Shown: positions 15,418-24,526 of the stretch, piece after piece
Layout: the number at the start of each line of letters is the position of its first letter
Position numbering within the stretch: position 1 is the first letter of the stretch
Assembly (NCBI RefSeq): GCF_001984215.1
Contig: NZ_CP019420.1
Location: forward strand, 1,426,001 to 1,490,000
Reading direction: 5' to 3'
Source of the DNA: Mycobacterium sp. MS1601
GTDB taxonomy: Bacteria; Actinomycetota; Actinomycetes; Mycobacteriales; Mycobacteriaceae
DNA length: 64,000 nt
Made by a program: the position numbers and the translations under genes
The notes under the pieces: generated by a model
Database searches by the model: none
The model's input: only the letters and a program-made list of their open reading frames with translations
What the model was told of the DNA's origin: nothing

Positions 15418-16494
15418 TCAGCCTCCACACTGACGGTAGAACTCGACATGTGCGGCGGCAGCAGCGTCCCAGGTCATGCTCTCCGCCAGCGCGCGCCCAG
15501 GGCCAGGGTCGGGCGGGTAATCCACGGTCGCCTGCAACGCTGCGGCGAAGTCAGCCGCCGACGAGGCGAAAGCCACTGTATCGCCGAATACTTCACGCAG
15601 CACGGGCAGATCCCGTGCCACCAGCGGACGCCCGGCGGCCAGGGCTTCCATGGCGGCCAGGCCGAAGCCTTCCTTGGTCGAGGGGAAGGCGAAGACCTCG
15701 CAGGCAGCCACCAGACTCGGCAGTTCGGTATCTTCGACAGCACCGAGTATCACCGGCCTGACGCCCAGCTCCACGCAGCGCCTTTCGAACGTGGCGCGGT
15801 AGTCTCGGTAGTCGAACAGCGTCTCTCCACCGGCGATCACCAGCGACAAAGCGGGGTCGCGCTGCTGCAACAACGCCATGGCCTCCACCAGATCGACAGT
15901 GCCCTTGCGGGGTTCGATGCCCCCCACCGCCAGCACATAGCGACCCAGCCGAGAACGCCAGTGATCCAACGCCGAAGTATCCGATGAAGCAGCGATGAAG
16001 CGCTTCGCCTGAACACCATTGGGGATCACCGTGGGTGATAAACCCCAGCCCGCCCGCACTTCGGCGGCCACTGCCTCGGACACGCAGATCCGCGCGTACG
16101 GCTCGACGATGGCACGCTCGTGACACTCGGCCAACACCGGCGTGGTGAACTGATCCAGGTGATGGATGGTGCGTATGCACCGGCCGACGGCGTTGGCGCT
16201 GATGCAGTCCTGTGCATGCACGATGTCATACTCTGCAACGGAGAACGCTTCTCGCATCGTCGAAATGGAGCGCACTATCCGATCGGTCACGGTGTCACCG
16301 GGCAGGTCCACGAACTCGACCAACTTCACCGTCACCGCTGGGTCGACGTCGCGGAAGAAGCCGCGGTCGCCGGCGCGAGCCAGCGACCACACTGTCACGT
16401 CGACACCGCAGGCAGCCAGCGCCTCAGCCAGGTTCAGCGTATGCACCACGCCACCACGGGGTTTCGTCGAGTACGTCAGCAGCGCGACGCGCAT
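15418..16494 (-). CDS. MSMEG_0565-family GT4 glycosyltransferase
   Basis: A 358-residue glycosyltransferase with two Rossmann-like domains. The N-terminus is MRVALLTYSTKPRGGVVHTL; the GT-B donor-site motif is FAFPSTKEGFGLAAMEALAA, with VAVGGIEPRKGTVDLVEAM-type nucleotide-sugar contacts upstream of it. It matches the glycosyltransferase that accompanies the mycobacterial nitrogen-starvation nitrilase cluster (MSMEG_0565 family). A GTG at 16500 overlapping the previous stop is an alternative start. It is the last gene of the operon; acceptor unknown, but it suggests the pathway ends in a glycosylated product. Confidence 0.85.
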   Translation of the reverse strand: MRVALLTYSTKPRGGVVHTLNLAEALAACGVDVTVWSLARAGDRGFFRDVDPAVTVKLVEFVDLPGDTVTDRIVRSISTMREAFSVAEYDIVHAQDCISANAVGRCIRTIHHLDQFTTPVLAECHERAIVEPYARICVSEAVAAEVRAGWGLSPTVIPNGVQAKRFIAASSDTSALDHWRSRLGRYVLAVGGIEPRKGTVDLVEAMALLQQRDPALSLVIAGGETLFDYRDYRATFERRCVELGVRPVILGAVEDTELPSLVAACEVFAFPSTKEGFGLAAMEALAAGRPLVARDLPVLREVFGDTVAFASSAADFAAALQATVDYPPDPGPGRALAESMTWDAAAAAHVEFYRQCGG

Positions 16495-16496
16495 CC

Positions 16497-17333
16497 TCAC
16501 AGCCTGCTCCGATACGTGGCTGGACGAAGCTCAGCCAGATGGTTGAGCACCTTGCGGGCCCGGGCGATCTCGGCCTCGACGTCGATCTCGACCTTGGCCA
16601 GCCCACCCTTGGCGCGCGTGGTCGCCAGGATGTCACCGCCGGGCCCCACCACCTTCGCCTGTCCGAGGAACCGCAGATTGCCCATCACCCCAGTCTGATT
16701 CGACGACACCAGCACCACCTGGTTCTCGGCAGCCCGGGCGCAGTCGTACAGATCGAACAGCCGGGATTGCCTGTCGGCGGGTAGACGCGAGGCACGATCG
16801 GTGATGCTGGCCGGCCACGCCGACAGTGCGGCGATGATGTGCGCGTCGGCGGTGGCCAGCGCACGGGCAGCTTCGGGGAAGGTCTTGTCGTAGTCGATCA
16901 GCATGCCGAGCCGGCCGACCGGGGTGTCGAACGCCGAGAACGCGTCACCGGCCAGGTACGTCAGCGATTCACCGGCAGGCTGATGCACCTTGCGGTATGT
17001 GCCCAGCACACCGTCGCCCGTCACGCAGATGGCAGCGTTGTACCGACCACCACCGGGTGCGGCTTCGGCGTAGCCCAGGCACACCGTCATGGGCCCCGCG
17101 GCGGCAATCACGGCGGCGATCTCGGGGCCGTCGGGATCCAGCGCGGGCGGCGGGTCCTCTGGATCGGGGGCGCGGAAGTCCCCGATGTACCCACCCAGGC
17201 AGGCATCGGGGAACACCAACAGGTCGACGCCCTCCTGCCGTGCGGTCCCGACGATGCCTACGGCTTTCTCGACACAGCGGGGCAGGTCGCGCCCGAAGTG
17301 CGCTGCTACCGCAGCGAGGGTCACCATTGCCAT
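16497..17333 (-). CDS. Nitrilase-fold protein lacking the catalytic cysteine
   Basis: A 278-residue carbon-nitrogen-hydrolase paralogue of the true nitrilase in the same operon (position of MSMEG_0566). Aligned to it, the nucleophile loop reads LGMLIDYDKTFPEAAR where the active protein has ICYDKAFPEAAR: Asp147 (codon at 16893-16895) replaces Cys. The first catalytic Glu is also changed to Asp43 (FPDACLGGY), while the Lys115 motif YRKVHQP is kept. The fold and ligand pocket appear intact, so it may bind the pathway intermediate, form a mixed oligomer with NitC, or do different chemistry. Ten bases separate it from the upstream gene. Confidence 0.85.
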   Translation of the reverse strand: MAMVTLAAVAAHFGRDLPRCVEKAVGIVGTARQEGVDLLVFPDACLGGYIGDFRAPDPEDPPPALDPDGPEIAAVIAAAGPMTVCLGYAEAAPGGGRYNAAICVTGDGVLGTYRKVHQPAGESLTYLAGDAFSAFDTPVGRLGMLIDYDKTFPEAARALATADAHIIAALSAWPASITDRASRLPADRQSRLFDLYDCARAAENQVVLVSSNQTGVMGNLRFLGQAKVVGPGGDILATTRAKGGLAKVEIDVEAEIARARKVLNHLAELRPATYRSRL

Positions 17334-17343
17334 CGGGAGTACT

Positions 17344-18774
17344 CTACGACGATCCGAGGCCGGTCACCGCAGGCGCCAGCACACTCGTCACCACCCCGTC
17401 GGGCCAGCGCAGTCGCACGCCGGGTTCGGCTGTCAGCACACCACATTCGGCACTCACCACGCCGGCGGGCAACTCGACAGTCGACTGCTGGCCGGCGGTC
17501 AGCATCCCGTAGCCGGGGAAGCAGGTCAGCCAGTCCCCCACCGACGCCTGCGTGGGCCGCGGCACAGCGGCGACGTCGATCTGCGCACCGGTGCCACAGG
17601 CCTCGGCCATCATCCCGAGGGTGCCCGCAATGCCGGCCATGCTGACATCCTTGGCCGCCTTGGGCGCCGCATCCGCCACCAGCGACGTCATCGCGACCAA
17701 CTCCGTACTACCGCGCGAGCTGGTCGAATCCCACTGCCTGCCATGATATCCCGATCGCCACCGGCCGGTGATGTCGGTAGTCAACCGCACCGGGTCACCG
17801 ACGGATCCACCACCGGCCCGCACGGGCGCACCCGTTCGGCCCAGCGCGGTCACCGACAGCGCCGCGGGCACACCGAGTTGGGTGTGCCCGCCCAGAACCG
17901 GCACCTGCCAGGCCGCCGCGGCCCGTGCGACGCCGGCGATCACCCGATCCAGGATCTGTCGCGTGGGGGCTCCGACGGCGTCGAGCAGACCCACCGGGGT
18001 GGCTCCCATGGCGGTCAGGTCGTTGACGTTGACCAGCACCGCGCACCAGCCGGCCCATTCGGGATCGCGCTCCACCATCGACGGCACGATCGCGTCGCAC
18101 GCCGCGATGAGGTCACTACCCGGTACCGGCACTCCGTCGTCACCGACGAACCCGGCCGGCCCCAAGCCCCCGGGAACGGTCCGCAGCGGTGCCAGACTGC
18201 CGCCGAGGAAGGACTTCGTTGCGGTGGCGGCCCGTTGGATGGGGTCCATCGGCCAGCGCACCCACGCATGCTCCTGCCCGGCCACCAGACGGGTACCAAG
18301 GAGGTTCCAGCCCAGGTGAGCGAACAGTCGCGCATAGCGCTGCTGCACGGTCGCCTCGAAGCGCAGCACGCCCGCCGTCTCGACGTAGGCGCAGGCGGCT
18401 CGCACCAGCGCGGGCCCGACACCGCTGGCGCGCACAGCCCGGTCGACCACCAGACGGCTGCCGGTCCACCAGCCGATGTCGGTGGCCATCCCACAATGGT
18501 GGGCCGGGGCCAGTCGCACGCCGCCGAGGATGTTCCCATCGGCAGTGGTGGCCACCAGCACCACGGTGCGCGGGTCGTCGTCGAGGTCGTCGCGGTCGGT
18601 ACCGGCGAACAACCCTTGTTCGGCGACGAACTCCTCGCGCCGCAGCCGCCGGTAGGCGGCCAGCTCTGCGGCGTTTGAGACGGGATTGATCAGAAACGGC
18701 GCCTCGGTGCGCGGGGTTCCGCACAGGATGGACAGCCCGACGGGTGCATGAGTGCTGGCGGTGAACGGGATCAT
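17344..18774 (-). CDS. GNAT acetyltransferase fused to AIR-synthase-like domain (MSMEG_0567 family)
   Basis: A 476-residue fusion. Residues 20-160 are a GNAT domain (YRRLRREEFVAEQGLF, GGVRLAPAHH, VGPALVRAACAYVETAG). From about 170 an AIR-synthase/PurM-like domain follows (FVGDDGVPVPGSDLIAACDA, LVNVNDLTAMGATPVGLLDA, VPVLGGHTQLGVPAALSVTA), an ATP-binding fold that activates amides or carboxylates. In cyanobacteria (Sll0786/Sll0787) and pseudomonads these are two genes of the Nit1C cluster. ATG overlaps the radical SAM stop by one base. Confidence 0.87.
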   Translation of the reverse strand: MIPFTASTHAPVGLSILCGTPRTEAPFLINPVSNAAELAAYRRLRREEFVAEQGLFAGTDRDDLDDDPRTVVLVATTADGNILGGVRLAPAHHCGMATDIGWWTGSRLVVDRAVRASGVGPALVRAACAYVETAGVLRFEATVQQRYARLFAHLGWNLLGTRLVAGQEHAWVRWPMDPIQRAATATKSFLGGSLAPLRTVPGGLGPAGFVGDDGVPVPGSDLIAACDAIVPSMVERDPEWAGWCAVLVNVNDLTAMGATPVGLLDAVGAPTRQILDRVIAGVARAAAAWQVPVLGGHTQLGVPAALSVTALGRTGAPVRAGGGSVGDPVRLTTDITGRWRSGYHGRQWDSTSSRGSTELVAMTSLVADAAPKAAKDVSMAGIAGTLGMMAEACGTGAQIDVAAVPRPTQASVGDWLTCFPGYGMLTAGQQSTVELPAGVVSAECGVLTAEPGVRLRWPDGVVTSVLAPAVTGLGSS

Positions 18775-19829
18775 CAGGCCCCCAGATTCTGCAGAACGCT
18801 GCAGGCTCCGCACGCGGCGCAGCCGGCCCGCTGGTCGGCACCAGTCATTCCCGCCGACTGCAACAGCAGCGCCACCTCACGGCTGACTTTCTCGACCACA
18901 CCGGCCTCCGGTGCGCGGGCACCGTCGACGTCGACGGCCAGTGAGCCGGCTTGGGGACGGAACGGGACGACAAACGGGTAGACGCCCATGGTGATGAGTT
19001 CGGCTGCGCCGGCGATCAATTCCTCGGGATCCTCGCCGAGGCCGACGAGCAGGTAGGTGGATACCCGGTTGCGGCCGAACACCCGAACGGCCTCCTGCCA
19101 TGCCTGGCGGTAACGCTCCACGGTGACCGTGGCTTTGCCGGGCATCCAGCGCTTGCGTACCTTTTCGTCGAGGGATTCGATGTGAATGCCGATGGCGTCG
19201 GCGCCGGCCTCGCGCAGGTCGGTCAGCACGGACAGGTCGGCCGGGGGTTCGCACTGCACCTGGATGGGCAGCGACGGGACGGCAGCCTTGACCGCTCGGA
19301 CGCAGCGGGCCAGGTGGCGGGCTCCGCGGTCGCTGCCGGCGGAGGTGCCGGTGGTCATCACCATCTGGGTCACGCCGTCCAACCGGACCGCGGCGGCGGC
19401 CACCTCGGCCAGTTCGGCTGGTCGTTTGACGGCGGTGGTGGCGCCGGAGCGCAGCGATTCCTCGATGGTGCAGAAACGACAGCGCTGGTCTTCGGCGTAG
19501 CGGATGCAGGTCTGCACCACGGTGGTGGCCAGGACATCGCGACCGTGCAACCGGGCCAGCTTTTCGTAGGCAACGCCGTCGGCGGTGGTCAGGTCGTAGA
19601 AGCGGGGCCGGTGCACCACTTCGACGTCCAGACCGGTGTCCTCGCCGTCGAGGATCACCCGGGTGCTGTCGAAGACGAAGGGACTGTCCGGGTTTCGCGG
19701 AATCGCGGCGCTGAGACCATCGATCACCAGGTGGCCGTCGACGCTGGGGCCGGCGCCTGCTGTGCGGGTGACCGGCGGGGCACCGCGGAAACCCAACAGT
19801 GCCAGATCTACTCGGGTGGATACAGACAT
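18774..19829 (-). CDS. MSMEG_0568-family radical SAM protein
   Basis: A 351-residue radical SAM enzyme of the Nit1C cluster (NitD equivalent). The iron-sulfur cysteines are in TCIRYAEDQRCRFCTIEESL, i.e. C-X8-C-X2-C rather than the usual C-X3-C-X2-C. A C-terminal CAACGAC cluster may bind a second centre. SAM-binding strands include MVMTTGTSAGSDRGARHLA and QVQCEPPADLSVL. ATG at 19829 is favoured by GAGAGG seven bases upstream; a GTG at 19844 overlapping the previous stop is possible. Reaction unknown. Confidence 0.87.
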   Translation of the reverse strand: MSVSTRVDLALLGFRGAPPVTRTAGAGPSVDGHLVIDGLSAAIPRNPDSPFVFDSTRVILDGEDTGLDVEVVHRPRFYDLTTADGVAYEKLARLHGRDVLATTVVQTCIRYAEDQRCRFCTIEESLRSGATTAVKRPAELAEVAAAAVRLDGVTQMVMTTGTSAGSDRGARHLARCVRAVKAAVPSLPIQVQCEPPADLSVLTDLREAGADAIGIHIESLDEKVRKRWMPGKATVTVERYRQAWQEAVRVFGRNRVSTYLLVGLGEDPEELIAGAAELITMGVYPFVVPFRPQAGSLAVDVDGARAPEAGVVEKVSREVALLLQSAGMTGADQRAGCAACGACSVLQNLGA

Positions 19830-19840
19830 CTGCGGACCTC

Positions 19841-21277
19841 TCACACGATGGATGGAATCGGTGCGCGGAAGGCACTGCGGCGGACCTTGCCTGCGGAGTT
19901 ACGTAGCGGATTGCGGGTCAGTGCGATATGGGTCGGTACTTCGTGGGCGGCGAGCTGAGACCGCACCGCCGACAACAGGGTGGCGGGGTCGATGTCAGCG
20001 TCGGCGATGTCCACCACGGCGCACACCTGTCCGTCCTCGGAGCCGTACACGACCGCGTCACGCACGCTGGCATGGGTGTGCAGTGCATGCTCGATGCGGG
20101 CGGGATACACCGGATTCCCTTTGTGGTGGAAGACATCTGCGGCACGGTCCATCAGGAACAGGTAGCCCTCGTCATCGAGGAAACCGAGATCACCCAGGGT
20201 GTCCCAGCCCTGCGGTGTTCGTCGTGAGACGCCGCCGAGATAGGTGTACGCGGGCTGCTCCCCGCGGCGCATCCAGACCTGCCCGATCTCGCCGGTGGCG
20301 GCATCTGTTCCGTCGTCGCGCCGGATGCGCACGACGGTGCCTCCGATGGGGGTGCCGACGCTGCCGGGCTTACGGAGCCAGTCGGCGCCGCTGATCATGG
20401 TCAGGCCGTTGGATTCACTGCCGGCGTAGACCTCGACCACCCGGTGGGGCCCCAACCAATCCAGCAGTGCCCGCTTGTCCACCGGCGCACACGGGGCACC
20501 GAGGTGCAGCAGCGTCCGCAGCGACGGCAGGTCACTGTGCCGGGCACCGCGCAACACCCGACGGATAGTGCTGGGTGCCAGCATGGTCCAGGTGACGCGG
20601 TGAGTGTCCACCAGGTCGGCGAACCAGCGCTCGTCGAAGCGGTCGGTGAGCACCAGCCGGTGGCCGGTCAGCAGACCGCGCATGGCGTAGGTGAACTGCG
20701 CGGAGTGCCACAGTGGTGCGGTCACCAACTGAACCGCCCGAAGCGGCAGGAATGGCGCCACCTGCTGGTGCGGGTTCACCAATGCCGGGGCGGCGGCCTG
20801 GACGATCTTCGCCGTGCCGGTGCTGCCGGAGGTGGTGGTGGCCTTCCAGCTGTCGGCCCAGGCATCGGGCAGTGGCGCTGCGGACTCCGCGGCGCCTGCC
20901 GAGGCAGGTAGCCACGGAATTGCCGCGCTCATCGCGGGCCTGCCGATCACCAGTGCCGGCCGGGCCAACGCTTCGAGGTGGGAGCGGGTGTCCGGCGGCA
21001 GCTCGGGCGACACGGGGTTGGGCGTGGCCCCGAGCTTCCAGATCGCCGCGCATGCCACCACGAAGTCCACGGTGTTGCTCAAGACCACCGACACGATGCT
21101 GTTGTGCTGCACTCCGGCAGCCCGGTAGGCACGGGCACGCCGGTTGCTCTCGGCGTCCAGCTCAGCAGCGCTGCAGGTGATTCCGTGGTGGTCGTCGACC
21201 AGCACGATATCCGTGGGCTGCTCCTTCGCCCGCGCCGCGAGAACGCGGGCGAAGGACTGGCGATCACCGGACGCCAT
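19841..21277 (-). CDS. AMP-forming acyl-CoA synthetase/ligase inside the Nit1C operon
   Basis: A 478-residue ANL-superfamily enzyme. The P-loop TTSGSTGTAK, the A5-like EVYAGSESNGLT, the hinge segment GWDTLGDLGFLDDEGYLFLM and the C-terminal lysine motif RNSAGKVRRSAF are all present, so it should adenylate a carboxylate and probably form a thioester. It is tightly packed between the flavoenzyme (4-bp gap) and the radical SAM gene (overlap), thus co-transcribed. It is not part of the usual core Nit1C set, and M. smegmatis gene numbering leaves no room for it there. Substrate unknown. Confidence 0.85.
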   Translation of the reverse strand: MASGDRQSFARVLAARAKEQPTDIVLVDDHHGITCSAAELDAESNRRARAYRAAGVQHNSIVSVVLSNTVDFVVACAAIWKLGATPNPVSPELPPDTRSHLEALARPALVIGRPAMSAAIPWLPASAGAAESAAPLPDAWADSWKATTTSGSTGTAKIVQAAAPALVNPHQQVAPFLPLRAVQLVTAPLWHSAQFTYAMRGLLTGHRLVLTDRFDERWFADLVDTHRVTWTMLAPSTIRRVLRGARHSDLPSLRTLLHLGAPCAPVDKRALLDWLGPHRVVEVYAGSESNGLTMISGADWLRKPGSVGTPIGGTVVRIRRDDGTDAATGEIGQVWMRRGEQPAYTYLGGVSRRTPQGWDTLGDLGFLDDEGYLFLMDRAADVFHHKGNPVYPARIEHALHTHASVRDAVVYGSEDGQVCAVVDIADADIDPATLLSAVRSQLAAHEVPTHIALTRNPLRNSAGKVRRSAFRAPIPSIV

Positions 21278-21281
21278 GGGG

Positions 21282-22556
21282 TCAGCTTCCGACAGCGAGC
21301 CGCAACACCGACTCGTGGTAGCCGCTGATGATGGTGGCTGCGATGTGGGACGCGTCGCGGTCGATGCCCAGGAAACGGCCCGATCCCCAGGTGTGCATCC
21401 ACGGCAGTCCGATGAAGCTCAGGCCCGGCACCGCGGTGACACCGCGGGTCTGCATGGGCCGGCCACCTCCGTCGAACGCGCTGGCCTCGATCCACCGGTA
21501 GTCCGGCCGGTATCCGATGGCCCAGACGATGCTGGTGACTCCTTCGGCATCGAGATCCAAAGTGGTGGCTTCGGTTTCGGGTTCCCACACCGGCTCGTAG
21601 CGGGTGGCCTCAGGAGCCTCGATACCTTCACGCTCGATATAGGTGTCGATGTCCGAGCAGATCGAGTTGTACACCGAATCGGCATAATCCAGCGCGCTGC
21701 GCAGCGTCGGCTCGAACTGCAGCGTGCTGTCCTTGCCGTCGGCAAGCGCACCGTAGAGCTTCATGCCCTCGGCCGCAAACTGCCGCAGATCCACGTCGCG
21801 GCCGCCGTCGCGACCGGTGACGTAGTGGTTGGTCTTCTCGATGGCCGCTTTTCCACCCGGATACTGCTGTGCCGCACGGTCATACAGTCCCATATCGGAC
21901 AACCAGGTCATGCAGTCGCGGCCACGGTAGAAGCGGGCCACCCGCGGTGCGTTGCCCACCGCCAGGTGCACCTGACGACCGGCCAGGTGCAGGTCTTCGG
22001 CGATCTGCGCCCCGGACTGGCCGGTGCCCACCACCAGGACCGCGCCGTCGGGCAGTTGCTCGGGGTTTCGGTACTGCTCGGAGTGGATCTGCGTGACGCC
22101 GGTGTCCAGGGATCCTGCGAAGGCCGGCGTGACGGGAAGCGGGTAGCCGCCGGTGGCGACCACGGCGTTCTCGCACGTGAGACTCTCGATCCCCGATGGG
22201 GTTTCGAGCGTGAGGGCAAACCCACCCTCAGGGCGCTGCGCCAGCTTGGTGACGCGGGTGTGAGTGCGCAGCGGCGCATCGAAGGTCTGCAGCCAGCCCT
22301 CCAGCCAGGCCACCACTTCGTCGCGGGTCATGAACCCGTCGGGGTCCGGTCCGGCGTAGGTGTAGCCGGGCAACTTGCAGTGCCAGTTCGGGGTCACCAG
22401 GGTGAAGTTGTCCCAGCGACTATCGGTCCACGCGTGCACCGGGGTGTGTGCCTCGAGCACCACGTGCTCGATGCGGGCGCGGCTCAGATACCAACTGACC
22501 GACAACCCGGCCTGTCCGCCGCCGATGATCGCCACCGGCACGTGTGTGCCTGTCAT
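21282..22556 (-). CDS. MSMEG_0569-family flavin-dependent oxidoreductase
   Basis: A 424-residue flavoprotein monooxygenase-like enzyme (NitH equivalent). FAD motif AIIGGGQAGLSVSWYL at residues 9-24, NADPH motif VVGTGQSGAQIAEDL near 180, and the FMO/BVMO-like VTPNWHCKLPGY. The C-terminal WAIGYRPDYRWI is the ATG/GYRPD-type motif. ATG overlaps the stop of the small upstream gene. In the cluster it would oxygenate or oxidise the nitrogen-containing intermediate. Confidence 0.88.
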   Translation of the reverse strand: MTGTHVPVAIIGGGQAGLSVSWYLSRARIEHVVLEAHTPVHAWTDSRWDNFTLVTPNWHCKLPGYTYAGPDPDGFMTRDEVVAWLEGWLQTFDAPLRTHTRVTKLAQRPEGGFALTLETPSGIESLTCENAVVATGGYPLPVTPAFAGSLDTGVTQIHSEQYRNPEQLPDGAVLVVGTGQSGAQIAEDLHLAGRQVHLAVGNAPRVARFYRGRDCMTWLSDMGLYDRAAQQYPGGKAAIEKTNHYVTGRDGGRDVDLRQFAAEGMKLYGALADGKDSTLQFEPTLRSALDYADSVYNSICSDIDTYIEREGIEAPEATRYEPVWEPETEATTLDLDAEGVTSIVWAIGYRPDYRWIEASAFDGGGRPMQTRGVTAVPGLSFIGLPWMHTWGSGRFLGIDRDASHIAATIISGYHESVLRLAVGS

Positions 22557-22849
22557 GATCTCTCCAGTTCGGGTTGCATGGCAATGATCGTGATCTCTTC
22601 GTCGGCGGCAAATCGGCTGGCGGAGAGGGTGATTTCTTCGGTGGTGGCTGCGGCCGAGGTGCAGGCGAAGCCGTACTTCGCGCGCACCCGGTCACTGGCC
22701 TGCTGCAGTGCGCTGCTGGCACGATCCACCAGATCGCCGACGGTGTACCGCTGCCCGGTGGTCAGGAAGTCGTGCATCACCAGGCTCGGCGAATAGCACG
22801 ATTGAGTGGAGCCGTCGGGCCAGCGGATGTCGAACGTCATCTCAGGCAT
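22553..22849 (-). CDS. MSMEG_0570-family nitrogen starvation response protein
   Basis: A 98-residue cytosolic protein with no enzyme motif: MTFDIRWPDGSTQSCYSPSL, then YTVGDLVDRASSALQQASDR. Its family occurs only with Nit1C genes. It overlaps nitC by eight bases and the flavoenzyme gene by four, so translation is coupled. Possibly a subunit or activator; role unknown. Confidence 0.85.
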   Translation of the reverse strand: MPEMTFDIRWPDGSTQSCYSPSLVMHDFLTTGQRYTVGDLVDRASSALQQASDRVRAKYGFACTSAAATTEEITLSASRFAADEEITIIAMQPELERS

Positions 22850-23732
22850 GCGCCAACTCCGCCCACTTCATGGCGTCGGCGTCGGTCAGCGGGCCGTAGA
22901 CGTCCGGCCTGCGGTCACGCAAATGGAACATGCCTGCCCGCATGGTGCGGAAGGTCTCGTCGACGTCCACTTCGGCAACCGCCATACCGCTTCCCAGCAG
23001 GGTGGTGGCCAGGATGTTGCCACCCGGGTCCACCACTTTGGAGTTCCCGACGTAACGCAGCGACCCGAAGGTGCCGCTCTGGTTGGCGGCCACCCAGAAC
23101 ACCTGGTTGTCGAGGGCCCGAGCGATGTCGAACTGGTTGAACCGGTAGGTCCAGCGATCGTCCTGCAGGTTCTCCGCGGTGGCGGTGCGCGCCGCCGGCC
23201 ACGCCGACAGGCTGGCGATGATCTGAGCGCCGTCGAGTGCCATCATGCGGGCAGCCTCGGGGAACGCCTTGTCGTAGCAGATCTGCAGGCCGATCCGGCC
23301 CGCCGGGGTGTCATAGACGTCGTAGCGGCTGCCCGCCGAGTACGACATGCTCTCCCCCAGCGGCTGGTGCACCTTGCGGTAGACACCGTAGATGTTGCCG
23401 CCGTCGAGCAATGCTGCTGCGTTGTAGCGTGTTTCGCCATCATCGGCCAGTTCGCAGAATCCGATGGCGACCACCAGGTCACCGGCCAGGTGCTGCACCC
23501 GTTTGATCTCGGGCCCGTCGATCCGGATGGCCGGCGGCAGTGATCGGGTGGTGGTCTTGACCGTGTCGCCGTGGTTACCCAATGACGACAGGTATCCGCC
23601 GATAGCCGCCTCCGGCAGCGCCAGGAAGTCGACACCGCGTTCGCGCGCCTCGTCGGCCAGCGACGCGATCAGGGCGTAGTTCTGGTCCAGGTCTCTGGTG
23701 AAGTTCGCGGAAACCGCTGCGAGAGTGGTCAT
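22842..23732 (-). CDS. nitC: Nit6803-family nitrilase (NitC)
   Basis: A 296-residue nitrilase, the enzyme core of Nit1C. The catalytic triad is present: Glu41 in LALPEAAIGGY, Lys120 in GVYRKVHQP and Cys152 in IGLQICYDKAFPEAAR. It converts nitriles to acids and ammonia; in pseudomonads this cluster is needed for growth on cyanide as nitrogen source, but the natural nitrile is unsettled. A second, Cys-less copy lies 5.5 kb downstream in the same operon. Confidence 0.92.
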   Translation of the reverse strand: MTTLAAVSANFTRDLDQNYALIASLADEARERGVDFLALPEAAIGGYLSSLGNHGDTVKTTTRSLPPAIRIDGPEIKRVQHLAGDLVVAIGFCELADDGETRYNAAALLDGGNIYGVYRKVHQPLGESMSYSAGSRYDVYDTPAGRIGLQICYDKAFPEAARMMALDGAQIIASLSAWPAARTATAENLQDDRWTYRFNQFDIARALDNQVFWVAANQSGTFGSLRYVGNSKVVDPGGNILATTLLGSGMAVAEVDVDETFRTMRAGMFHLRDRRPDVYGPLTDADAMKWAELAHA

Positions 23733-23739
23733 CGTGAAC

Positions 23740-24261
23740 TCACACCATGTAAGTGGAGTTGATGATGGCGCCCTTGCGGGCGTAGTAGATGAGGGCGTCC
23801 TGGACGTCCAGCGGATGCGCCGGGATGACGCCCTCGATCAGGTCCTCTTCGCGGCCGCCGTGCAACGCAAGCCCGAAGCGGCAGGCGAACACCGTGCCGC
23901 CCTCGGAGATGAAGGTGGCCAGCGCGTCGTTGATGTTCTGCTCGCCGGGGAAACCCGAGTCACCGGTGGTGGGGAATCCTCGGGTGGCCAGGCAGTTGAT
24001 GGCGCCGGGGCCGTAGAAGTAGATGGCGGACTCAAATCCCTTGCGCAGGGCGCGAGTTGCCTGCAGGACGGCGACGAAGCTGACCGACGACTCGTGGGCG
24101 ATGCCGTGCACCAGGGTGAAGTAGCTCTCGCCCTCTTCGGCCTGGTAGTCCGGGAAGATCTTGGTGCCGCCGTAGATGTTGCTGCCCTTGGGCAGCGACG
24201 GGTGCGGGATCTCGGCGAGCGAGGTGGCGATGTTCTCGGCGATGGATGCGTCAAATGCCAT
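23740..24261 (-). CDS. nitB: MSMEG_0572/Sll0783-family nitrogen starvation response protein (NitB)
   Basis: A 173-residue protein, first gene of the operon. EIPHPSLPKGSNIYGGTKIF, then FYGPGAINCLATRGFP and GGTVFACRFGLALHG, match the family that opens Nit1C clusters; its DsrE-like layout with conserved Cys residues is suggestive only. GGAG precedes the ATG. Seven bases separate it from nitC. Required for cyanide assimilation in pseudomonads, exact role unknown. Confidence 0.88.
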   Translation of the reverse strand: MAFDASIAENIATSLAEIPHPSLPKGSNIYGGTKIFPDYQAEEGESYFTLVHGIAHESSVSFVAVLQATRALRKGFESAIYFYGPGAINCLATRGFPTTGDSGFPGEQNINDALATFISEGGTVFACRFGLALHGGREEDLIEGVIPAHPLDVQDALIYYARKGAIINSTYMV

Positions 24262-24348: not shown

Positions 24349-24526
24349 CACCAATTACAGGCCCGCACTATTTCCTTTTGGTTATCGATGGAAGACGTCT
24401 GCGTTGCCGGATGCTCTCCTGGCGTAATGCGGCCGTAACGCAGCCGCTTGTGCACAGCCGGTCACTGCATGGCGGAAACTCGGCCGGAAACCCGCCACAG
24501 AGTGACTGGGTGTTACGCCTCTGCGT

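Follow-up and report, generated by a model that had tools for sequence, protein, structure and literature searches.

A conserved Cys-less paralogue of the nitrilase fold in the actinobacterial Nit1C (gpr) operon

Why should an operon that encodes a nitrilase-fold protein with a cysteine in the catalytic place also keep a second copy from which that cysteine is missing? The question is raised by a 64,000-nucleotide stretch of Mycobacterium sp. MS1601 (contig NZ_CP019420.1, positions 1,426,001 to 1,490,000; hereafter the window, whose first letter is position 1). On its minus strand lie two related genes. One, at 22842-23732, encodes a Cys-bearing protein, here called the C-type; the other, an uninterrupted open reading frame at 16497-17333, encodes a 278-residue paralogue with aspartate at the nucleophile position, the D-type. 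The comparisons below show that the D-type represents a real and conserved Asp-for-Cys clade of the nitrilase fold, undescribed within the literature searched; its retention is documented here, and a function for it is proposed.

Aspartate at the nucleophile position

The D-type is 47% identical to the C-type, and their alignment sets Asp43, Lys115, Glu122 and Asp147 against Glu41, Lys120, Glu127 and Cys152. By sequence and fold it belongs to the nitrilase superfamily, matching the Pfam CN_hydrolase model (PF00795) with 104 bits, and in its predicted model a strand (residues 140-146) is followed by a helix (147-151), which puts column 147 at the place of the nucleophile elbow. It departs from the superfamily in having Asp for the nucleophilic Cys and a relaxed Asp for the first Glu. 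Because Asp43, Lys115 and Asp147 stand where the Glu-Lys-Cys triad is expected, we class it as a Cys-less member of the fold that stands apart from the canonical enzymes of the superfamily. In N-carbamoylputrescine amidase, a related enzyme, the first Glu and a second one deprotonate the Cys thiol; the oxyanion hole is made up of the Lys and a backbone NH, and it is the Cys that attacks the substrate (PMC4812014; this and the other papers are cited from the parts of their text that were available). To judge from its residues, the D-type would be unable to hydrolyse amides or nitriles through the family's Cys mechanism.

Scanned without its first residue, the D-type reached the cut-off of no NCBIfam family: it scored 25 bits with TIGR04048 (Nit6803/NitC; cut-off 502.6) and 66 bits with TIGR03381 (N-carbamoylputrescine amidase; cut-off 410.25). 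Nor does it qualify as an aliphatic amidase, since that NCBIfam model was not among its matches at E<=0.001 and the catalytic Cys is absent. Among the matches listed, its closest organism-named protein record comes from Mycolicibacterium (93% identity). As a control in the same genome, five of the six other CN_hydrolase-like sites examined have Cys in the nucleophile column; the sixth, which has Gly, belongs to a protein with two such domains, of which it is the second. That protein (589 residues; G000:C1:1584585-1586348, or L226:2083-3852, minus strand, outside the window) has Cys151 in its first domain and Gly434 in its second, so that a Cys-bearing and a Cys-less nitrilase-fold domain are naturally fused in one chain. 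It was dropped as a precedent, being found in only 2 of 197 class genomes.

The substitution is shared by relatives. We collected 362 proteins, made up of the top 120 of the 3897, 5708 and 4246 matches to three D-type queries (360 in all) and two query proteins; because the nearest 120 per query were taken, the set samples within the clade and tells of the absence of Cys there, not of how frequent the clade is. All 362 have Asp147 and Lys115, and 361 have Glu122. In a separate genome-contig collection, the best 80 of 402 relatives, the frame is open and Asp147 present in 80/80 loci. Asp147 is likewise found in all 108 D-type genes from genome loci, window included, encoded by GAC in 105 and GAT in 3, and in neither the 362 proteins nor the 108 genes is it ever Asn, Ser, Ala or Glu. 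Position 43, in contrast, varies: D 339, H 20, Q 2 and Y 1 in the proteins, D 75 and H 5 in the 80 loci, and D 95, G 7, H 5 and Q 1 in the 108 genes. Cys-to-Asp at 147 is thus a fixed character of the clade, whereas 43 is a relaxed position. Among the columns with 95% or more conservation in each of the two paralogues (108 and 114 sequences), only four differ between them, namely D147/C152, L192/R197, A202/L207 and E268/D273. One D-type, 77% identical to the window copy and in the actinobacterial gene order, lies on a contig labelled Acidobacteriaceae (L044), possibly through a binning error.

In a 78-row tree from which columns 43 and 147 were omitted, 35 D-types fall on one side of one branch (Shimodaira-Hasegawa-like approximate likelihood ratio test, SH-aLRT, 98), so that one state change is needed. 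This quick tree placed the duplication itself ahead of the split from the Nit1C copies of G100 and G121 (loci L020 and L021), two genomes that belong to another class in the same phylum, whereas a constrained tree, in which the D-type and the class-level Cys copies form one clade and the duplication follows that split, was 10.7 log units better (approximately unbiased test, p-AU 0.741); as the placements differ, they give no firm date. In 10 of 107 loci a Cys copy lies directly upstream of the D-type, an arrangement that would fit tandem duplication.

The median pairwise ratio of nonsynonymous to synonymous substitution rates (dN/dS) was 0.146 for the D-type (42 of 81 D-type genes, 840 pairs, using only pairs with dS 0.15-1.2) and 0.136 for the Cys paralogue. 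Neighbouring genes gave 0.081 (MSMEG_0572 protein), 0.162 (radical SAM), 0.193 (flavoprotein), 0.225 (glycosyltransferase), 0.266 (GNAT/AIR) and 0.351 (the 98-residue protein). The D-type is under purifying selection about equal in strength to that on its Cys-bearing paralogue.

A first-pass annotation, made from the window's letters, had placed Asp147 at the nucleophile position of an intact frame with a conserved Lys115, and had held the gene not to be decayed. The alignments, the 80 open frames and the dN/dS bear this out. That annotation also proposed asking whether the two acidic substitutions are shared and under purifying selection, and named mycobacterial homologues with Cys at this place as the result that would overturn it; the Cys-to-Asp change proved shared and constrained, with no such homologue among the relatives examined. 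The Glu-to-Asp change at 43 holds for the window protein and is not shared, the position being relaxed to D, H, G, Q or Y.

The operon and its distribution

The D-type belongs to an actinobacterial Nit1C ('gpr', MSMEG_0565-0572-like) operon. Its genes are given here from upstream to downstream; family names are NCBIfam matches above curated cut-offs, except for the ligase, the 98-residue protein and the two nitrilase-fold proteins.

23740-24261, minus strand: MSMEG_0572/Sll0783 family nitrogen starvation response protein (TIGR04044, above cut-off)
22842-23732, minus strand: C-type paralogue, E41/K120/E127/C152 (below the cut-offs of the Nit6803 and AguB models)
22553-22849, minus strand: 98-residue protein (MSMEG_0570 by its place in the operon alone; without a Pfam family)
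21282-22556, minus strand: MSMEG_0569-family flavin-dependent oxidoreductase, the flavoprotein (TIGR04046, above cut-off)
19841-21277, minus strand: AMP-binding ligase (by Pfam; in only part of the related operons)
18774-19844, minus strand: MSMEG_0568-family radical SAM protein (TIGR04043, above cut-off)
17344-18813, minus strand: GNAT and AIR-synthase-like protein of MSMEG_0567 type, GNAT/AIR (TIGR04050 and TIGR04045, above cut-off)
16497-17333, minus strand: D-type, Cys-less nitrilase paralogue of 278 residues at the MSMEG_0566 position, with D43, K115, E122 and D147
17205-17207, minus strand: Asp43 codon (GAT) of the D-type, first-Glu position, relaxed among relatives
16893-16895, minus strand: Asp147 codon (GAC) of the D-type, nucleophile position, within GMLIDYDKTFPEAAR
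15418-16500, minus strand: MSMEG_0565-family glycosyltransferase (TIGR04047, 458 bits against a cut-off of 259.85)

Matches to TIGR04043, 04044, 04045, 04046, 04047 and 04050 thus stand side by side on one strand, all above cut-off, and the D-type stop is overlapped by the listed GTG start of the glycosyltransferase. Upstream of the operon, at 24424-24439, lies the sequence GTTAC-N6-ATTAC, which we take to resemble a GlnR box. GlnR binding has been reported upstream of msmeg_0572 (PMC4222082).

Described Nit1C clusters (PMC1199592, PMC11049912) likewise bring radical SAM, GNAT, AIR-synthase-like, flavoprotein and MSMEG_0572/Sll0783 genes into one operon; in Pseudomonas the cluster is connected with cyanide assimilation (PMC11049912), and in Burkholderia and Rubrivivax it has a glycosyltransferase insertion (PMC1199592). 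The window operon also resembles the gpr cluster MSMEG_0565-0572 of Mycobacterium smegmatis (PMC6039565), with families 0572, 0569, 0568, 0567 and 0565 in that order and 0571, 0570 and 0566 assigned by position; unlike that cluster it has an added AMP-binding ligase. From described Nit1C clusters it differs in the added Cys-less paralogue, which the available text on them does not mention, and in its Cys enzyme, which scores 32.7 bits with the Nit6803 model, TIGR04048, against a cut-off of 502.6.

The first-pass annotation had called this Cys enzyme a true, active nitrilase. The residues Glu41, Lys120 and Cys152 are there; the activity is unproved, and with a Nit6803 score so far below the cut-off the better name is nitrilase-superfamily hydrolase. 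With TIGR03381 (AguB) it scores 113.3 bits (cut-off 410.25), and its best solved relative by sequence is a plant N-carbamoylputrescine amidohydrolase (E 1.8e-21), so that by these scores it appears nearer to N-carbamoylputrescine amidase than to a Nit6803-type NitC, though below both cut-offs. No protein of the window genome exceeds the Nit6803 cut-off. It has been proposed that the TGA of the Cys-paralogue gene is read as selenocysteine (PMC6039565). In the window this TGA falls among the opening codons of the gene for the 98-residue protein, which overlaps it (22842-22849); among 112 loci the stop is TGA in 110 and TAG in two (L171 and L191), so the TGA is not universal.

MSMEG_0566, which from its position and family names would belong to the D-type clade, is termed a putative aliphatic amidase in PMC6039565 and tabulated as 'aliphatic amidase' under nitrogen starvation or limitation in two papers, among them PMC4222082; contrary to that label, the catalytic Cys is missing from the window copy and from the relatives examined. 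The available text on MSMEG_0566 does not mention the missing residue, and our literature search, which did not extend to subscription journals, found no report of a Cys-less nitrilase paralogue or of this substitution. Across databases and papers the D-type family is labelled amidohydrolase, nitrilase or aliphatic amidase, and acyltransferase in single records.

We surveyed Actinomycetota genomes at the level of the family (401), the class (394) and the phylum (296). The family sample gave matches at E<=1e-55 in 110 genomes, with at least two in 108; the two single-match genomes were G505, an 85%-complete assembly with a Cys copy, and G481, with a decayed remnant. In G481 (locus L216) a D-type fragment and a GNAT/AIR remnant lie in a broken cluster, beside an open reading frame that we presume to be transposon-borne, and the genome has no radical SAM match. 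At the phylum level, matches at E<=1e-45 occurred in 6 genomes, three D-type by residues (the window genome, one congener and one from another family of the class) and three Cys-type only. The class sample gave matches in 49 genomes, six of which (G511, G547, G329, G327, G989 and G993) lie outside the fetched regions; 40 class-level regions held the D-type in 25, the Cys type in 39 (one cut by a contig end) and both in 24.

The most constant neighbour is the glycosyltransferase, next after the D-type in 105 of 107 loci at a median gap of 3 bases to its first aligned base. Upstream of the D-type stand GNAT/AIR (68 of these loci), the flavoprotein (24), the Cys copy (10) or the 98-residue gene (4). 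The Cys paralogue was seen in 71 of the 80 genome-contig loci, with its E-K-E-C residues in all 71; of the remaining nine, eight are truncated upstream where the contig ends, and the ninth, L091, has a Cys paralogue and the flavoprotein elsewhere in the genome. Strict co-occurrence of D-type and glycosyltransferase is ruled out: no D-type-like match was found in the region around the glycosyltransferase in 15 of 18 phylum genomes that have one (some regions being cut by contig ends), nor at E 1e-30 on 52 of the 56 plasmids that carry the glycosyltransferase. The glycosyltransferase is therefore common without the D-type, and the tie runs one way only.

On four large Rhodococcus plasmids (NZ_CP113952, NZ_CP088909, NZ_AP026692 and NZ_CP034156) the D-type and the glycosyltransferase are accompanied by another nitrilase-like site; since cluster genes sit on large plasmids, the cluster may move. 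Beside its D-type, Williamsia G1029 (L084) has a pair of Cys-type copies that share 85% and 55% identity with the one in the window. Set against D-bearing loci, L020, L021 and L127 give the impression that two or more kinds of hydrolase occur in actinobacterial Nit1C clusters: one is a Cys type akin to the window's, the other belongs to clusters such as L127, where no gene of that type was recognised (tblastn, 1e-4). A flavoprotein above the TIGR04046 cut-off was found in 5 of 7 D-bearing and 2 of 16 D-less genomes tested (G993 being called D-less from a single match score alone); as 14 of the 16 belong to just two genera within a single family, this correlation is not independent evidence.

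What the Cys-less paralogue may do

We favour, at a probability of roughly 0.45, the reading that the D-type is an ancient pseudo-nitrilase that has retained its pocket in order to bind a ligand or to regulate, its partner being either the Cys paralogue or the glycosyltransferase. To go by the tree, Cys gave way to Asp in a single change, and the altered copy was then kept in the Nit1C (gpr) operon beside its Cys-bearing paralogue. The Asp147 carboxylate at the elbow would face Lys115 and Glu122 in a fixed polar site and would end the need for a general base that deprotonates Cys; with no thiol to deprotonate, the first Glu would be unneeded, which may explain the relaxation of position 43. 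The pocket would bind a substrate, intermediate or product of the pathway, and the D-type could then serve a neighbouring enzyme as a ligand-binding regulator or carrier, much like a 'prozyme'. Inactive paralogues of this kind and other pseudoenzymes are known; the likeness here, seen from sequence alone, is that an apparently inactive and constrained copy shares an operon with an intact one. What favours a role with the pocket in use is that Lys115, Glu122 and Asp147 are kept, though an unused pocket would drift. That a Cys-less pocket can bind is indicated by engineered relatives with ligands, according to their structure titles (6ypa, C146A with glutaramide; 5h8l, C158S with putrescine). 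Hints of a partner are the presence of the Cys paralogue with the D-type in 24 of 25 class-level loci, and also in the split operon L091, and the near-constant glycosyltransferase.

Several points weigh against this reading. The D-type has no known ligand, partner or activity, and dN/dS and gene order speak for its retention, not its role. It is absent from 15 of the 39 Cys-type loci, all of which have the glycosyltransferase; 13 of these come from two genera of one family, and the remaining two are in G883 and in G719, a genome with D-bearing congeners. The D-type is therefore accessory and dispensable to the pathway, lost or never gained while the rest of the operon was kept. Conversely, in G711 the D-type is an orphan: neither a radical SAM protein nor a flavoprotein nor a Cys paralogue of this kind was found there. 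Given these loci and the greater constancy of the glycosyltransferase, the partnership with the Cys enzyme suggested by the first-pass annotation has indirect support only. Finally, Asp itself is absolutely fixed, not just any residue that is no nucleophile, which could equally mean chemistry.

The chief rival builds on this last point: Asp147 would be a catalytic carboxylate, either a covalent nucleophile working through an ester or anhydride or a general acid-base, together with Lys115 and Glu122. Asp replaces Ser in the dehalogenases and epoxide hydrolases of the alpha/beta-hydrolase fold, which offers a comparison. The (near) invariance of the three residues beside a relaxed position 43, expected where no Cys proton is removed, the lack of any other residue at 147 and a constraint as strong as that on the Cys paralogue all suit such chemistry; yet the literature search found no Asp-nucleophile member of the nitrilase fold, Gly or Tyr at 43 would leave variants without the usual first base, and no substrate is known. 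We consider it possible and on balance unlikely. A shade less probable is its fuller form, in which the D-type would be a natural Asp-based enzyme lineage of the fold, the first in the literature searched: a single Cys-to-Asp change would have made an amidase-like active site carboxylate-based and fit for a new step of the actinobacterial Nit1C pathway, Lys115 and Glu122 being retained while the first base, no longer needed, could vary. More doubtful is a purely structural partner, a subunit hetero-oligomerising with the Cys paralogue and kept for its surfaces with the pocket unused. Its paralogous origin, the Cys copy directly upstream in some loci and a helix (188-204 in the model) almost invariant across 242 proteins would agree with that, but Lys115, Glu122 and Asp147 should then have drifted like position 43, and none did; moreover, genomes keep the Cys paralogue without the D-type.

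A conventional amidase or nitrilase using another Cys, which the first-pass annotation had named as a way in which it could be wrong, would match the hydrolase names in use, and candidates exist in Cys85 (361/362) and Cys103 (350/362). In the predicted model, however, these lie in strands 83-91 and 97-105, away from the elbow; Cys85 is also seen in Cys-type copies, which possess a nucleophile of their own, Ala replaces Cys103 in 12 of the 362 proteins, and the D-type reaches no NCBIfam cut-off. We reject an alternative nucleophile on position and variation, and regard this reading as very improbable. Least probable by far is a decaying gene or a sequencing error. Decay has occurred in the broken cluster of G481; in all 80 genome-contig loci the frames are open, the dN/dS is low and the key residues do not vary. 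Asp147 in every protein and gene collected excludes chance or sequencing error, and conservation and dN/dS rule out error, isolated mutation and decay alike.

For the D-type family, then, ordinary hydrolysis is unlikely, the nucleophile being missing despite the names amidohydrolase, nitrilase and aliphatic amidase. For the M. smegmatis cluster a direct part in nitrogen assimilation has been suggested (PMC6039565). Whatever the D-type binds or converts is likely to be a compound of the pathway, and a Cys-less clade with one clean substitution offers a direct way into the Nit1C/gpr pathway. If the D-type proves catalytic, one lineage of a large hydrolase superfamily would have exchanged its nucleophile for another.
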